This document shows positions 2,677 to 14,689 of a stretch of 64,000 nucleotides of DNA, in pieces. This DNA is from Pseudogemmobacter lacusdianii (GTDB taxonomy: Bacteria; Pseudomonadota; Alphaproteobacteria; Rhodobacterales; Rhodobacteraceae): assembly GCF_030848395.1 (NCBI RefSeq), contig NZ_JAVDBT010000005.1:186001-250000 (forward strand). The letters run 5' to 3'. The position numbers and the translations under genes are program-made. The notes under the pieces were generated by a model that saw nothing but the letters and a program-made list of their open reading frames with translations, ran no database searches and was not told the origin of the DNA. The number at the start of each line of letters is the position of its first letter. Position 1 is the stretch's first letter.

Positions 2677-3097
2677 TCCGGCCCTTCAGTCGCCGCAAAG
2701 CCCGCTGGCCCGCTTTGCCGTGACCGAGGATCAGATTCGCGCCGTGGTGACGGCGTTTTACGATGCGGTGCGCCGCCATCCGGGGCTGGGTCCGGTCTTT
2801 GCCGCCCATGTCACCGATTGGCCCGCGCATGAGGCGCGGATCGTGGCCTTTTGGGCCAATGCGATCCTCTATGAGCGCGGCTATGAGGGCAATCCTTTGG
2901 CCGTCCACCGCCGCGCCGGCAATGTGCGACCGGGGATGTTTGAGCCTTGGCTTGCCCTTTTCGACGCCACTTTGCGGCGCGAATTGGCGCCCGAGACGGC
3001 GGAGGCTTGGTCGGTGCTCGCCCATCGCATCGGCGCAGGCCTGCGCTATGGGCTGGTCGAGGCCACGCCCAAAGGTCAGCCGCCTATCTTGCGTTAA
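2663..3097 (+). CDS. group III truncated haemoglobin
   Basis: A 144-residue globin of the 2-over-2 type. The sequence FAVTEDQIRAVVTAFYDAVR, the downstream GPVFAAHV segment and the NPLAVHRRAG segment with the presumed proximal histidine fit group III truncated haemoglobins. Such proteins bind O2, NO or CO; their physiological role is mostly unresolved. The start at 2663 overlaps the DUF2237 stop by 14 bases; an in-frame ATG at 2645 would add six residues. A bidirectional terminator-like hairpin follows directly. Confidence 0.85.
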   Translation: MLPPDPALQSPQSPLARFAVTEDQIRAVVTAFYDAVRRHPGLGPVFAAHVTDWPAHEARIVAFWANAILYERGYEGNPLAVHRRAGNVRPGMFEPWLALFDATLRRELAPETAEAWSVLAHRIGAGLRYGLVEATPKGQPPILR

Positions 3098-3101
3098 AGC
3101 A

Positions 3102-3132
3102 AAAGGCCCGCAAGCTTTCGCTGCGGGCCTTT
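3102..3132. terminator. bidirectional intrinsic terminator between the haemoglobin gene and trpB
   Basis: Ten-base inverted repeat, aaaggcccgc (3102-3111) pairing with gcgggccttt (3123-3132). It has A/T-rich flanks on both sides and sits between two convergent genes. Confidence 0.75.
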
Positions 3133-3157
3133 ATTATTTCACTGCGCTTTGAAAGGC

Positions 3158-4390
<1,233 letters not shown>

Positions 4391-4482
4391 GTCACCCAAC
4401 TCCCTGCCAAGGCCTTTGATCTATCGCCCTTGGCGGCAAAGGGAAAGGGGGCGCTGCCCCCTCGGCGCTGCGCGCCTCACCC

Positions 4483-4543
4483 CCGGAGTATTTGGATCAG
4501 GTGAGAGTATTTTCATCTTGAGATAAATACTCCCGCCGGAGGC
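4483..4543. repeat. extragenic palindromic repeat, variant A, copy 1
   Basis: Between trpB and trpF. Core tttcatcttga-N-ataaatactcc followed by cgccggaggc, with a partial mirror copy (cggagtattt) on the left. A separate ggggg-cgctg-ccccc hairpin lies just upstream (about 4447-4461). It is the same element as at 10161, 16379 and 40030. Confidence 0.75.
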
Positions 4544-4582
4544 ATGCCGCCGCAAGGCGGCTCTCGCCGGTTGCCAGAGGCG

Positions 4583-5251
4583 TCACCGCAGGATCGGCAC
4601 GCCGCCTTTTTCCATATGGGCGGCCTTGGTGAAGGCGGCAATTTTTGCGGCGTCTTTCTGGCCGGGCGCGGATTCGACGCCCGAGGCAACGTCGATTTGC
4701 CGCGCATTGGTGAGGCGGATCGCCTCGGCCACGTTGGCAGGCGTCAGGCCGCCTGCCAGCATCCAGGGCTTCAACCAGCGGCGTTGCGCGACCAACCGCC
4801 AGTCGAAGGCAAGGCCATTGCCGCCGGGCAGCACCGCGTCTTTGGGCGCCTTGGCATCGACCAAAATCTGATCGGCCACCAGTGAATAGTCGAAAACCGC
4901 CGCAAGGTCGCCTTCATCCGCCACGCCCACGGCCTTCATCACCGGCAGGCCGTAGCGGGCTTTGACCTCGGCCACGCGGTCGGGGCTTTCCTTGCCATGG
5001 AGTTGCAGCATGTCGAGCGGCATCGCCTCGACAATGGCGTCCAATGTTGCGTCATCGGCATCGACGACGAGGCCGATTTTGCACAGGCCCTCAGGCGCGG
5101 CATGGGTGAGAAGGCGCGCCTCCTCCAGCGTCACGAAACGCGGCGATTTTGGGAAGAAATTCAGCCCAATATAGGCGGCTTTGGCTGCAACAACAGCGGC
5201 GAGATCGGCATCGGTGCGGATGCCGCAGACCTTCACGCGAATTTCGGCCAT
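4583..5251 (-). CDS. trpF: phosphoribosylanthranilate isomerase
   Basis: Catalyses the Amadori rearrangement of N-(5-phosphoribosyl)anthranilate to CdRP in tryptophan synthesis. It is a 222-residue single-domain beta/alpha barrel. VKVCGIRTDAD at residues 6-16 holds the catalytic cysteine, and the LQLHGKESPD and LAGGLTPANVAEAI segments form the substrate and phosphate sites. The start codon overlaps the stop of the upstream lapA-like gene by one base (TGATG), which indicates translational coupling. The identification is secure. Confidence 0.97.
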   Translation of the reverse strand: MAEIRVKVCGIRTDADLAAVVAAKAAYIGLNFFPKSPRFVTLEEARLLTHAAPEGLCKIGLVVDADDATLDAIVEAMPLDMLQLHGKESPDRVAEVKARYGLPVMKAVGVADEGDLAAVFDYSLVADQILVDAKAPKDAVLPGGNGLAFDWRLVAQRRWLKPWMLAGGLTPANVAEAIRLTNARQIDVASGVESAPGQKDAAKIAAFTKAAHMEKGGVPILR

Positions 5252-10939: not shown

Positions 10940-11008
10940 GCGCGGCTCCTAGCGCCGGGGCGGGGGGCTGGTCAAGCTTTGGCCGCTTTGTCGTGGCGGC
11001 CTATGAAA

Positions 11009-11041
11009 GAAAACGGCGCGCCAAGGGCACGCCGTTTTCTT
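11009..11041 (-). terminator. intrinsic terminator of leuA
   Basis: Stem gaaaacggcg/cgccgttttc (plus one G-U and one further pair) flanking a ccaaggg-type loop. The minus strand continues TTTC. It lies between the leuA stop and the trmB start. Confidence 0.8.
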
Positions 11042-11058
11042 TATCAGAGCTGAAGCTC

Positions 11059-12630
11059 TTAGCCGTGATAGGTGACGGTCTTGGTGTCCTCACCCGGCGC
11101 GGTTTTCTGCCGCCGCACGATCAACCGGTTCAGCGCGTTGATATAGGCCTTGGTCGAGGCGACGATCGTATCGGTATCGGCCGAAGAGCCGGTGACGATG
11201 CGGCCGTCTTCCTCAAGCCGCACCGAGACGGTGGCTTGGGCATCGGTGCCTTCGGTCACGGCATGGACCTGATAGACCTGCAGCCGGGCCGAATGCGGGA
11301 AGAGCTGTTTGACACACATGAAGGCCGCGTCGACCGGGCCGTCGCCGGTGCAATCGATCTGGTGATCGACGCCGTCAATGGTGAGGGTCATCTCGGCCTC
11401 ATTCGGGCCTTCGGTGCCGCAGATCACCCGCAGTTTCTTCAGCTGCAGGAATTCATGCGCATCATTGGTCTGCTCATCCGAGACCAAAGCGACCAGATCC
11501 TCGTCATAGACCTCTTTCTTGCGGTCGGCCAAAGCCTTGAACCGAACGAAGACATCGTTCAGCTGGTTATCGGCCAGCTCAACGCCCAGCTCTTTGAGCT
11601 TGGCGCGCAGAGCGGCGCGGCCCGAGTGCTTGCCCATGGCGATGTTCTTGACCGTGAGGCCGATATGCTCGGGCTTCATGATCTCAAACGTTTCCACGTT
11701 CTTCAGCACGCCATCTTGGTGGATGCCCGATTCGTGGACGAAAGCGTTCTTGCCGACGATCGCTTTGTTGGGCTGCACCACGAAGCCCGAGACGGTCGAG
11801 ACGCGGCGCGAGAGGTGCATGATCTTGGTGGTGTCGATGCCGGTGCGGAAGGGCAGGATGTCATTGCGCACCCGCAGGGCCATGACCACCTCTTCCAGCG
11901 CGGTATTGCCCGCGCGCTCGCCCAAGCCATTGATCGTGCATTCGATCTGGCGTGCGCCTGCTTCGACAGCGGCGAGGGAGTTCGCCGTCGCCATGCCAAG
12001 GTCATTGTGGCAATGGGTGGCGAAGATGATCTCGTCGGCGCCCGGCACCCGCTCGAGGAGCATGCGGATGATCTTGGCCGATTCCATCGGATAGGTGTAG
12101 CCGACGGTGTCGGGGATGTTGATCGTGGTGGCGCCAGCCTTGATCGCAATCTCGACCACGCGGCAGAGGTAATCCGGCTCGGTCCGGGTCGCATCCATCG
12201 GCGACCATTGGATATTGTCGCACAGGTTGCGGGCGTGGCTTACGGTGTCATGGATGCGCTCGGCCATCTGGTCCATGTCCAGATTGGGGATCGCCCGGTG
12301 CAAGGGCGAGGTGCCGATGAAGGTGTGGATCCGCGGCGATTTGGCGTGTTTCACCGCCTCCCAAGCGCGGTCGATGTCGCGGAGATTGGCGCGGGCCAGA
12401 CCGCAAATCGTGGAGTTCTTCGCGCGTTTGGCGATCTCGGATACGGCGGCGAAATCGCCGTCCGAGGCGATCGGGAAGCCCGCTTCGATCACATCGACGC
12501 CCATCTCATCCAGAAGGCCGGCAATCTCCAGCTTCTCTTCATGGGTCATGGTGGCGCCGGGCGATTGTTCGCCATCACGCAAAGTGGTGTCGAAAATCAA
12601 AACGCGGGGTTGCGAAGCGGTATCGGTCAT
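11059..12630 (-). CDS. leuA: 2-isopropylmalate synthase
   Basis: First committed step of leucine synthesis: acetyl-CoA plus 2-oxoisovalerate gives 2-isopropylmalate. It is 523 residues. The HMGL-like catalytic barrel has DTTLRDGEQSPGA at residues 14-26 and the metal-site motif THCHNDLG. It is followed by the LeuA dimer regulatory domain from about residue 375, the site of leucine feedback inhibition. The ATG at 12628-12630 is preceded by AAAAGGA. A leucine-rich leader frame with alternative RNA stems lies 115 bases upstream, so leucine attenuation is likely. Confidence 0.97.
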   Translation of the reverse strand: MTDTASQPRVLIFDTTLRDGEQSPGATMTHEEKLEIAGLLDEMGVDVIEAGFPIASDGDFAAVSEIAKRAKNSTICGLARANLRDIDRAWEAVKHAKSPRIHTFIGTSPLHRAIPNLDMDQMAERIHDTVSHARNLCDNIQWSPMDATRTEPDYLCRVVEIAIKAGATTINIPDTVGYTYPMESAKIIRMLLERVPGADEIIFATHCHNDLGMATANSLAAVEAGARQIECTINGLGERAGNTALEEVVMALRVRNDILPFRTGIDTTKIMHLSRRVSTVSGFVVQPNKAIVGKNAFVHESGIHQDGVLKNVETFEIMKPEHIGLTVKNIAMGKHSGRAALRAKLKELGVELADNQLNDVFVRFKALADRKKEVYDEDLVALVSDEQTNDAHEFLQLKKLRVICGTEGPNEAEMTLTIDGVDHQIDCTGDGPVDAAFMCVKQLFPHSARLQVYQVHAVTEGTDAQATVSVRLEEDGRIVTGSSADTDTIVASTKAYINALNRLIVRRQKTAPGEDTKTVTYHG

Positions 12631-12703
12631 TTGAGAAATCCTTTTATCTTAGCCAGTTGCGGTGCCAACCTGCCGGGTCACTTGACCCTTGCTTTGTGGC
12701 TGT

Positions 12704-12751
12704 GGGCGCTGATCACCTCCGAGCGGTCGCGCCCAAGGGCACGCTCAGAGG
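12704..12751 (-). promoter_or_regulatory. putative leucine attenuator stems upstream of leuA
   Basis: Minus-strand RNA can form stem A: CCTC/GAGG and GAGCG/CGCTC (12716-12751), enclosing GUGCCC-UU-GGGCGC and the leader stop codon. The GGGCGC half (12729-12734) can instead pair perfectly with GCGCCC (12704-12709), so the two folds exclude each other. A further GGGTCA-AG-TGACCC hairpin lies nearer leuA (12677-12690). No clear U-run follows, so control could be translational or Rho-linked. The fold is inferred by eye. Confidence 0.5.
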
Positions 12752-12831
12752 CGGCTAAGAAGAAGCAGGCCAAGGGCAAGCGACGGGCGCAGGCCCGGCG
12801 TCTGGTGGCGAATGTGCAAATCCTTGGTCAT
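12745..12831 (-). CDS. putative leucine-rich leader peptide of leuA
   Basis: A 28-codon frame starting ATG at 12829-12831 and ending TGA. The last 11 residues are LALGLLLLSRL, with seven Leu among them, four consecutive; the whole peptide has nine Leu. Leucine codons just before the stop, overlapping alternative RNA stems and followed 115 bases later by leuA, are the hallmark of a transcription- or translation-attenuation leader. The start has no good Shine-Dalgarno; the predicted promoter would place the transcript 5' end at or next to the ATG. Confidence 0.72.
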   Translation of the reverse strand: MTKDLHIRHQTPGLRPSLALGLLLLSRL

Positions 12832-12838
12832 GCCCCGG

Positions 12839-12866
12839 ACTATATTCAGCTTTGGCGCGATGAAAA
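12839..12866 (-). promoter_or_regulatory. predicted promoter of the leuA leader transcript
   Basis: Minus strand: -35 TTTTCA (12861-12866, 4 of 6), a 16-base spacer, and -10 TATAGT (12839-12844, 5 of 6). The expected start of transcription falls at 12831-12832, that is at the leader ATG, which would make the leader peptide leaderless. Confidence 0.45.
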
Positions 12867-12956
12867 GAGGGGATCGTCGCAAATGCGCAGCTTTTTCAGC
12901 GAGGCTTTCTGGGCGCGCGCCTCACGCTGGCGCCTGTTCTTTTGAGAAAGGGCGGA

Positions 12957-13083: not shown

Positions 13084-14586
13084 TTAAGGCGTTGCGGGCG
13101 CCTCAGTCGCAGGGGCTTCGGGGGCAGGGGTTGCCGCAGGGGCGGCACCTTCGGCGGGGGTCGCGCCGTCCGCTGGGGCTTCGGGCGTGCCTTCCGGGGC
13201 GGCGGTCAGGATACCGTCTTGCCAGATGCCTTCTGCCACTTGACCGCTTTTGTAGGTCAGTTTGCCTTGGCCCGAGCGGCGGCCCTTTTCGAAGTTGCCC
13301 TCATAAATATCGCCTTCGGGATAGGTGGCTTTGCCGATGCCGTGGATCTCGCCCTCGGCCCAAGCACCGATATAGCCAAAGCCACCTGGCATGGTGATCT
13401 CGCCTTGGCCCGCGCGCAGATTGGCTTTGAAATCGCCCTTATAGACAGTGCCATCGGGATAGGTGGCTGTGCCCACACCCTCACGCGCGCCGGCCTTCCA
13501 ATCGCCCTCATAGCGATAGCCGTCGGGATAGCTCATCACGCCTTGGCCCTGCGGCTGGGCATCCACAAAGTCGCCCTCATAGATCAGGCCACTTGCATAG
13601 GTGGCGCGGCCCTTGCCTTGGATAACGCCTTTTTCCCAAGCGCCGGTATAGGTCGAGCCATCGGGATAGGTGATCGCGCCTTGCCCCTGCGCGAGGTCCC
13701 CCGCCATTGCGCCGACATAAACCGAGCCATCGGGATAGGTCACCGAGCCGGTGCCCTCCATCCGCCCCTCAACCCATGAGCCTTCGTAACGAAAGCCATC
13801 CTTGGCGGTGAAAATCCCTTGGCCGTGGCGGCGATCTTCCTTGAATCCACCTTTATAGACATCGCCCGAAGCATAGGTGACTTGGCCTTGGCCCTGCCGC
13901 TGACCATTGGCAAAGGGGCCGTCATAGACATCGCCATTGGGCTGGGTGAGCTTGCCAGTGCCATTGATCTGCCCCGCCGCCCAATCGCCGGTATAGGTAA
14001 GGCCATTGGGCATGATCAACGTGCCCTTGCCCGCGCGTTCCCCTTTGACCAGCCCGCCCTCATAGACGGTGCCATCGGCATAGGTGATCTTGCCTTGGCC
14101 CTCTTTCACTCCGGCCAGCCAATCGCCCTCATAGCGATAGCCACCCGGATTCTCGATCACGCCTTGGCCGTGGTGCTGGCCGTTTTCAAAGCCGCCGGTA
14201 TAGACCGCATCATTGGCGTAACGCGCCACGCCTTGCCCGGTCATCTTGCCGTGCAGCCAATCGCCCTCATAGGTGCCACCATCGGCAAAGGCGATCTTGC
14301 CCTTGCCATGCGGTTGCCCCTTTTCAAACTGCCCCGTGTAGACCGAGCCATTAGGGTATTTCGCGCTGCCTTGGCCCTTGATCTCGCCGGCCACCCATTC
14401 GCCGGTATATTCATAGCCGCTGGGCAGGGTGTAAGTGCCCGTCCCATCCTGCCGACCGTTCTTGAAGGTGCCGACATAAATCGAGCCATCGTCATAGCTT
14501 TTGCTCACCACCTCGCCCTCGGATTGGGCAAAGGCGGGGGCAGCGCTGAGGGCGGCTGCAATGATGATCGCGGAAAGCTGACGCAT
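13084..14586 (-). CDS. exported MORN-repeat protein
   Basis: A 500-residue protein with a Sec signal peptide (MRQLSAIIIAAALSAAPAFA). It is followed by 18 consecutive 23-residue MORN repeats of the form YxGxWxxGxxxGxGxxxYPDGxx, a degenerate 19th, and a low-complexity Pro/Ala/Glu tail. MORN repeats form elongated beta-hairpin sheets and in other proteins bind lipid or protein partners; no enzymatic domain is visible. The ATG at 14586 has GGAG six bases upstream. The gene is encoded as an almost perfect 69-base periodic array. It is divergent from nadE. Function is unknown. Confidence 0.9.
   Translation of the reverse strand: MRQLSAIIIAAALSAAPAFAQSEGEVVSKSYDDGSIYVGTFKNGRQDGTGTYTLPSGYEYTGEWVAGEIKGQGSAKYPNGSVYTGQFEKGQPHGKGKIAFADGGTYEGDWLHGKMTGQGVARYANDAVYTGGFENGQHHGQGVIENPGGYRYEGDWLAGVKEGQGKITYADGTVYEGGLVKGERAGKGTLIMPNGLTYTGDWAAGQINGTGKLTQPNGDVYDGPFANGQRQGQGQVTYASGDVYKGGFKEDRRHGQGIFTAKDGFRYEGSWVEGRMEGTGSVTYPDGSVYVGAMAGDLAQGQGAITYPDGSTYTGAWEKGVIQGKGRATYASGLIYEGDFVDAQPQGQGVMSYPDGYRYEGDWKAGAREGVGTATYPDGTVYKGDFKANLRAGQGEITMPGGFGYIGAWAEGEIHGIGKATYPEGDIYEGNFEKGRRSGQGKLTYKSGQVAEGIWQDGILTAAPEGTPEAPADGATPAEGAAPAATPAPEAPATEAPATP
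13113..14483 (-). repeat. 69-bp in-frame tandem repeat array coding the MORN units
   Basis: About 18 units of 69 bases, each encoding one MORN repeat. The tatagg-tg and ccatcggg-type positions recur at constant phase. The array is coding, not CRISPR. It is a likely site of copy-number change by recombination. Confidence 0.8.
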
Positions 14587-14689
14587 CGTGGTCTCCATCG
14601 GTGCGAATCCGGTCGCAGGGTATGCCGTTGGCCTTGGCGGTGGCAAGCGGGGCGGCTAGAAGCGCAAGGAGAGTTTGGGAGACCCTGTG

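Follow-up and report, generated by a model that had tools for sequence, protein, structure and literature searches.

A conserved leuA control RNA with a leucine-rich leader peptide in Alphaproteobacteria: a probable translational attenuator

Introduction

Does the short leucine-rich reading frame that precedes leuA in Pseudogemmobacter lacusdianii belong to a regulatory RNA, and at which level of gene expression would such an RNA act? A preliminary description of the locus had proposed ribosome-mediated attenuation, with a leader frame ending in a run of leucine codons, a stop codon placed within a stem and two mutually exclusive folds. The question was followed in the window, which is the whole stretch of 64,000 nucleotides of contig NZ_JAVDBT010000005.1 that was analysed, and in related genomes. 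Comparative evidence indicates that the element is a widely conserved leuA control RNA. Its sequence, its conservation, the co-variation of its pairings and its position at leuA are directly supported, and the reading preferred here, with a probability of about 0.7, is that of a leucine-sensing translational attenuator of leuA.

The leuA locus and its leader frame

The 2-isopropylmalate synthase of the window is an enzyme of the bacterial type (NF002087, 849.6 bits; TIGR00973, 668.5 bits; each above its cut-off in the profile search). Upstream of its gene the announced 28-codon frame is indeed present on the minus strand, from the ATG at 12831-12829 to the TGA at 12747-12745; it encodes the peptide MTKDLHIRHQTPGLRPSLALGLLLLSRL with the C-terminus LALGLLLLSRL. 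The distance of 115 bases that had been given between the leader and leuA has to be corrected to 114 nt, from the TGA to the leuA ATG at 12630. The features of the locus are the following.

11059..12630, minus strand: leuA, 2-isopropylmalate synthase, 523 aa (profile matches)
12639..12643, minus strand: AAGGA, Shine-Dalgarno sequence of leuA (sequence reading)
12647..12654, minus strand: 3' arm of helix P3, GGCUAAGA, just upstream of the leuA Shine-Dalgarno sequence (pairing and fold)
12704..12709, minus strand: 3' arm of helix P2, GCGCCC, forming a pseudoknot with P1 or an alternative to the P1 interior (local helix search)
12716..12725, minus strand: 3' arm of helix P1, CGCUCGGAGG (alignment pairing)
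12729..12734, minus strand: 5' arm of P2, GGGCGC, within the P1 loop (local helix search)
12731..12740, minus strand: inner hairpin GCCC/GGGC, which excludes P2 (alignment and MFE fold)
12742..12751, minus strand: 5' arm of P1, CCUCUGAGCG, with the stop codon inside (alignment pairing, given below)
12745..12831, minus strand: leader peptide frame, 28 codons and TGA (sequence; kept in relatives)
12753..12760, minus strand: 5' arm of P3, UCUUAGCC, the last leucine codons and the serine codon onward (pairs with 12647-12654)
12757..12768, minus strand: run of four leucine codons, codons -7 to -4 before the stop (conservation)
12839..12844, minus strand: TATAGT, likely -10 box, 7 nt to the leader ATG (promoter scan)
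12861..12866, minus strand: TTTTCA, likely -35 box of the leader promoter (TTTTCA-16-TATAGT, 9/12 matches)

Further upstream of the leader, on the minus strand at 13084-14646, lies a protein gene whose translation contains MORN-like repeats as judged by eye.

Conservation and distribution

Loss of the leucine-rich frame in relatives had been named in the preliminary description as the observation that would speak against it; the frame is conserved and its pairing co-varies. The leader is present at all 13 leuA orthologues of the genus, the window's own included. Among 70 named loci (L031-L100), nearly all from Rhodobacterales according to their titles, L098 ends before leuA, and 64 of the 69 readable ones have a leucine-rich frame that lies within 300 nt of leuA, as the criterion demanded, and ends at such a stem. 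The element stands further upstream of leuA in L044, L055 and L079; L068 was missed by the filter, its frame and stem being visible by eye and its genome giving a match to covariance model R1 (below), and the R1 search of the L094 genome gave no match. Two duplicates (L031 and L067) were dropped, and the statistics set comprises 75 distinct sequences, 13 from the genus and 62 others. The distance from the stop codon to leuA is 155-250 nt in L075, L085, L097 and L099, longer than at most loci.

Codons -7 to -4 encode leucine in 65, 71, 70 and 75 of the 75 loci, respectively, mostly as CTT, CTC, CTG and CTA, and their third positions vary synonymously. Leader peptides of the family mostly finish with LLLLSRL-stop, and those from elsewhere with L-R/L-L-x-x-P-stop.

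Model R1, built on the 75 sequences alone, matches 287 of 295 family genomes, each of which stands for one genus; most have a single match, and matches were counted whatever their place relative to leuA. The same model gave 42 matches in 289 genomes of the class, 38 of them outside the family. Where the place of leuA is known, 31 of 32 matches outside the family lie 50-123 nt upstream of it on the same strand, G091 being the exception; the other six R1 genomes comprise four with a LeuA-like frame downstream of the match (G586, G111, G570, G188), and G590 and G052. Many of these class loci were also used to train model R2, which matches 79 of 240 genomes: 73 matches are situated at most 500 nt upstream of leuA, four are in genomes without a listed leuA and two lie elsewhere (E about 0.03). 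In three of these four genomes (G037, G111, G188) a LeuA-like frame, cut by the contig end, follows the match; the fourth is G024, treated below. The leuA list used for this place test, from which eight rows under the TIGR00973 cut-off had been dropped, holds 115 class genomes, of which 73 are R2-positive and the others have no match at this sensitivity. A search of the phylum set found matches in 57 of 299 genomes, 54 of them in the class. The three outside the class, all with E of 0.03-0.05, were treated as chance matches.

Bradyrhizobium (L103), Thalassospira (L105) and Xanthobacter (L110) are named carriers beyond Rhodobacterales. In two alphaproteobacterial genomes, G024 (L216) and G548 (L220), the leader element is followed by a LeuA of yeast type (TIGR00970 above cut-off). 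As regards loci L101-L180, the first leader finder (four leucine codons in nine codons, plus an ATG) recovered only 22 of 80, and R1 had sense-strand matches in 52 at E <=0.5, that of L176 lacking a stop where one would be expected, and none in 28.

Codon -5 was compared in 51 loci, which include two of the window's family (L178 and L179, both of the leucine type) and 49 from outside it. This codon is CGA in 28 and leucine in 23, and nothing else (e.g. L115, L149, L158). In 48 of the same loci codon -4 reads CTT, and CCC is likewise the final codon in 48, many leaders thereby reading L-R-L-x-x-P-stop. The CGA-type leaders have few leucine codons near their end. Because codon -5 is an arginine codon in 28 of the 49 loci outside the family, a plain leucine-run reading is incomplete there.

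A search of plasmid DNA returned mostly short, chance-like matches, plus Phaeobacter L186. On that 18-kb plasmid of Phaeobacter inhibens, leuA and the leader element occupy 2978-4665, next to rlmJ. The leuA-like gene on a Streptomyces plasmid (L184) has no such leader as judged by eye.

Folds of the leader RNA

The stem described earlier around the stop codon was confirmed as a 10-bp helix (P1) that spans exactly 12716-12751. It is paired in 98% of cells across the 75 sequences, with 20 cells in which both sides are changed; for 59 sequences drawn from the whole class, the family among them, the figures are 96.9% and 30 cells, in an alignment (A3) that was fitted to the structure and so favours the P1 pairing. 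UAG or UAA takes the place of UGA in 6 of the 51 loci, and L169, L163 and L120 carry the matching base in the opposite P1 arm. Inside P1 the three core GCC/GGC pairs of the inner stem are formed in 95.1% of cells (75 sequences), and the stem core of the element is nearly invariant in the alignment.

Equally present is the alternative pairing of GGGCGC (12734-12729) with GCGCCC (12709-12704), here called P2. Since the MAFFT alignment misplaces P2 in many rows, with pairing in 68.8% of cells, this helix was assessed by searching each locus separately and comparing the result with shuffled tails. Uninterrupted pairing of 5 bp or longer is found in all 75 loci and of 6 bp or longer in 71, compared with 76% and 41% of shuffled tails, and own partners pair better than mismatched ones (z = -6.9; 75 loci). 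All 13 loci that lack GGCGC retain a perfect P2 helix of 6-7 bp, L035 by means of a G-U pair, with variants such as GGGUGC/GCACCC, CCGGGC/GCCCGG and CGGCGGC/GCCGCCG. The claim that the two folds exclude each other holds for the inner GCCC/GGGC pairs and P2, and has to be given up for the ten outer pairs of P1, which can coexist with P2 as a pseudoknot. Comparative evidence points to a pseudoknot of two helices in the leuA leader. Predicted fold stability was not clearly better than that of shuffled sequences, either for the 210-nt leader (z = -1.5; 18 of 200 shuffles as good) or for the 71-nt core (z = -1.3; 19 of 200).

Pairing of the leucine codons with the ribosome-binding region

The long-range pairing P3 was absent from the preliminary description, as were the promoter-like site and the antisense KKKQAKGK stretch that are treated below. 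P3 joins the last leucine codons to the region just before leuA, where the partner stretch is GGCUAAGA; its 8 bp in the window adjoin the Shine-Dalgarno sequence, which only an extension of the helix reaches. Paired with its own partner, the leucine-codon arm reaches a mean of -12.3 kcal/mol over the 75 loci, vs -9.6 kcal/mol for mismatched partners (z = -10.9, inflated, like every z value given for P3, by the relatedness of the loci). Control stretches placed 18, 12 and 6 nt upstream gave z = -0.5, -2.2 and -2.1, and a stretch 6 nt downstream, which overlaps P3 and P1, gave z = -6.7 as well. Outside the family z is -8.2 in 49 loci, L178 and L179 having been dropped as members of the window's family and L176 because it lacks the expected stop, and the controls 18 and 36 nt upstream stand at -1.5 and -0.9. 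Some relatives pair poorly, at least 36 foreign partners scoring better than the own one in 16 of the 75 loci.

At four loci of Rhodobacterales (L044, L055, L079 and L178) a gene that is cupin-like on reading the sequence by eye, at about 1010-1500 in the first three, is inserted between the leader and leuA, and there the P3 partner lies at the ribosome-binding site of that gene. The pairing is CCUUAGCC/GGCUAAGG in L044, CUUAGC/GCUAAG before the GTG start in L055 and CCUAAUC/GAUUAGG in L178, the last two found by eye. The leader of L044 pairs with -16.8 kcal/mol at the cupin-like gene vs -10.9 kcal/mol upstream of leuA, and that of L079 with -11.5 vs -8.0 kcal/mol; in L055 the script took a later ATG (-8.5 vs -8.0), and hence this locus was read by eye. 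Whichever gene comes first, be it leuA or a cupin-like gene, the leucine codons co-vary with its ribosome-binding region.

Promoter and leader start

Two promoter-like sites were found in 12560-12920, where 0.1 would be expected, and a sequence resembling CTTTTCA also occurs in many relatives among the aligned leader loci. Ahead of the leader start codon, 59 of 74 loci show a TATA-like box at -16 to -5 and none of the 74 an SD-like 4-mer, the ATG having been chosen by its -10 box at loci with several in-frame ATGs; the single-ATG loci (n=42), taken as a control, gave 38 and 0. At the leuA start the corresponding counts are 2 and 34 of 75. Only 7 nt separate TATAGT from the leader ATG, so transcription probably begins at this codon or right beside it, and the leader would be read from a leaderless mRNA.

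Proposed mechanism

The leaderless start, the stalling, the direction of control and leucine as the signal are parts of the model that we infer. Transcription from the promoter would begin at the leader ATG or beside it, and the ribosome would then enter the leader directly. When leucyl-tRNA is plentiful, the ribosome is expected to pass the four leucine codons, stop at UGA and leave. P3 could then close, UCUUAGCC pairing with GGCUAAGA beside the Shine-Dalgarno sequence and around P1, which in turn can form the pseudoknot with P2; the closed P3 would hide the ribosome-binding region and keep leuA low. When leucyl-tRNA is scarce, the ribosome would wait on the leucine codons with the 5' arm of P3 beneath it, and leuA would become translatable.

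In a nested folding model without the pseudoknot, the probability of P3 in the window is about 0.56, and the Shine-Dalgarno sequence is unpaired with 0.45 in the free RNA vs 0.53-0.57 with a ribosome on the leader, so the energies modelled for this genome support the mechanism only mildly. The ribosome footprint removes P3 by construction, also when it is placed at the stop codon. A ribosome resting at the stop would therefore block P3 too, and the model needs quick release.

Alternative explanations

Transcriptional attenuation, in which the position of the ribosome would decide whether transcription ends, at an intrinsic or Rho-dependent terminator, or reads through, draws on the same leader with leucine codons and on the exclusive P1/P2 folds. 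When ribosome footprints are included in the folding, P1 gives way to P2 for stalls at codons -5 and -4. The leuA strand is free of terminator-like sites in the scan of 12560-12920, however, and the leucine codons co-vary with the ribosome-binding region of whichever gene comes first, for which reasons this explanation is held to be rather unlikely. Of the attenuation originally proposed, the leucine-codon leader with exclusive folds is strongly upheld by conservation and co-variation, and its terminator/antiterminator form is not. Rho-dependent termination may occur as a secondary effect. One terminator-like site was found on the plus strand of the scanned region, where 0.6 would be expected. 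An intrinsic terminator before leuA was rejected, none being found on the leuA strand and a T4+ run occurring anywhere from the stop to leuA in only 9 of 75 loci.

The element could also be the binding site of a protein or ligand, the leucine codons serving mainly as RNA. Its compactness, its capability to form a pseudoknot and its nearly invariant stem core would suit such a site, and codon-dependent regulation has been doubted in Streptomyces, as far as the available part of the text tells (PMC1262725). A pure RNA site would have no need of the synonymous third-position variation of the leucine codons or of a frame which, in the cases checked, still ends at the same place when UAG or UAA is used and keeps the pairing there. 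It is considered improbable.

Nascent-peptide arrest, where the C-terminal peptide and not uncharged tRNA-Leu would stall the ribosome, accords with the conserved peptide ends within and outside the family. The residues upstream vary widely, though, and the last codons are also constrained by the P1 pairing; arrest by the peptide is judged highly improbable.

That the leucine run is an artefact, merely the antisense of a lysine-rich gene on the plus strand, is practically dismissed: its DNA is the exact antisense of KKKQAKGK in a plus-strand frame open from 10993 to 12945, yet this frame continues antisense across leuA, and at 35 of 75 loci it is interrupted where it faces the leader, whose own frame is kept. 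The 650-codon open frame at 10993-12945, which covers leuA and the leader on the opposite strand, resembles a shadow frame of G+C-rich DNA.

Comparison with known systems

The best-known amino-acid leader-peptide switches control transcription termination; for the leuA element the evidence favours control of translation initiation, by an RNA that is found in nearly all genera of one large family and recurs in the class. The attenuator of the enterobacterial leu operon (Leu leader, Rfam RF00512) likewise has a leader peptide with leucine codons and alternative RNA folds, and differs from the window element in its terminator, for which the scan of 12560-12920 gave no counterpart on the leuA strand. 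The Rfam search of the window gave no match at the gathering threshold and, at a relaxed threshold, four sub-threshold matches, all unrelated. In translational attenuators of the erm type, stalling on a leader peptide frees a hidden Shine-Dalgarno sequence and the signal is an antibiotic, whereas here the signal would be uncharged tRNA-Leu and the leader codons themselves pair beside the Shine-Dalgarno sequence. Judged by the co-varying P3 pairing, the mark of a translational attenuator, i.e. a leader that pairs with the downstream ribosome-binding region, is present.

Within Alphaproteobacteria, a leaderless leader-peptide mRNA has been reported for trpL of Sinorhizobium meliloti in the available text of PMC10117765; the window element would probably share this leaderless start, and trpL is a Trp attenuator. 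The cysS leader uORFC-8-2 of Rhodobacterales, according to the accessible part of PMC8632094, shares with the window element the order and a leader peptide of cognate codons, and differs in its cysteine codons, its gene and its intrinsic terminator with a U run. The word leuA does not appear in the main text of two surveys of structured RNAs (PMC8632094, PMC11109978). No alphaproteobacterial case was found in the open-access literature that was searched; Lopatovskaya et al. 2010 (doi 10.1134/S0026893310010164), cited in the available part of PMC4833913, and Vitreschak et al. 2004, cited in that of PMC10117765, may hold one. For Corynebacterium glutamicum an RNA-seq study mentions, in its accessible text, a presumed leuA leader with four leucine codons (PMC4046766).

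The closest counterpart is the actinobacterial LEU element. As far as the available sections of Seliverstov et al. 2005 (PMC1262725) describe it, this element lies upstream of leuA and consists of a leader with a run of leucine codons, a pseudoknot, an alternative hairpin and a base stem in which the leucine codons pair with the leuA Shine-Dalgarno sequence. The same sections favour protein binding and cite Streptomyces mutants, in which changes of the leucine codons deviate from the prediction of classical attenuation. The layout can be followed by eye in Tsukamurella (L183), with MTYRGHLLLLPRHGGA-stop, P1 as CCACGGCGGG/CCCGCCGTGG, P2 as GGGCCGGC/GCCGGCCC and UCCUUC/GAAGGA as the base pairing. 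All these components, from leuA and its leucine-codon leader to the base stem and the alternative hairpin, are common to both elements, and by this likeness the window element may be called the alphaproteobacterial counterpart of the LEU element in layout. The two differ in phylum, in their stem sequences, in the stop codon, which in the window element lies inside P1, and in the type of LeuA, which is bacterial in the window (TIGR00973) and yeast-like in L183 (NF002991 above cut-off, TIGR00970 just under). Since R2 gave no match at E up to 10 to L183, the sole actinobacterial element compared, common descent is not claimed, and the likeness is one of layout: the element works like its counterpart.

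A broader reading, tentative and on the whole unlikely, would join these observations: Alphaproteobacteria and Actinobacteria would share a leaderless leucine leader in which the codons themselves supply the strand for closing a pseudoknot across the ribosome-binding region, used with two types of LeuA (mostly the bacterial one, and the yeast type in G024 and G548), and arrest at CGA or at Pro-stop, rather than leucine scarcity alone, could set the switch in the 28 of 49 loci outside the family where CGA stands between the two last leucine codons, mostly with a Pro-stop end. If the attenuator reading of the leuA element is true, hundreds of genomes are predicted to contain a gene for a short peptide together with a leaderless start of its mRNA, and these leaders would offer a compact test bed in non-pathogenic bacteria for the mechanism of the LEU element, a question left open in 2005.
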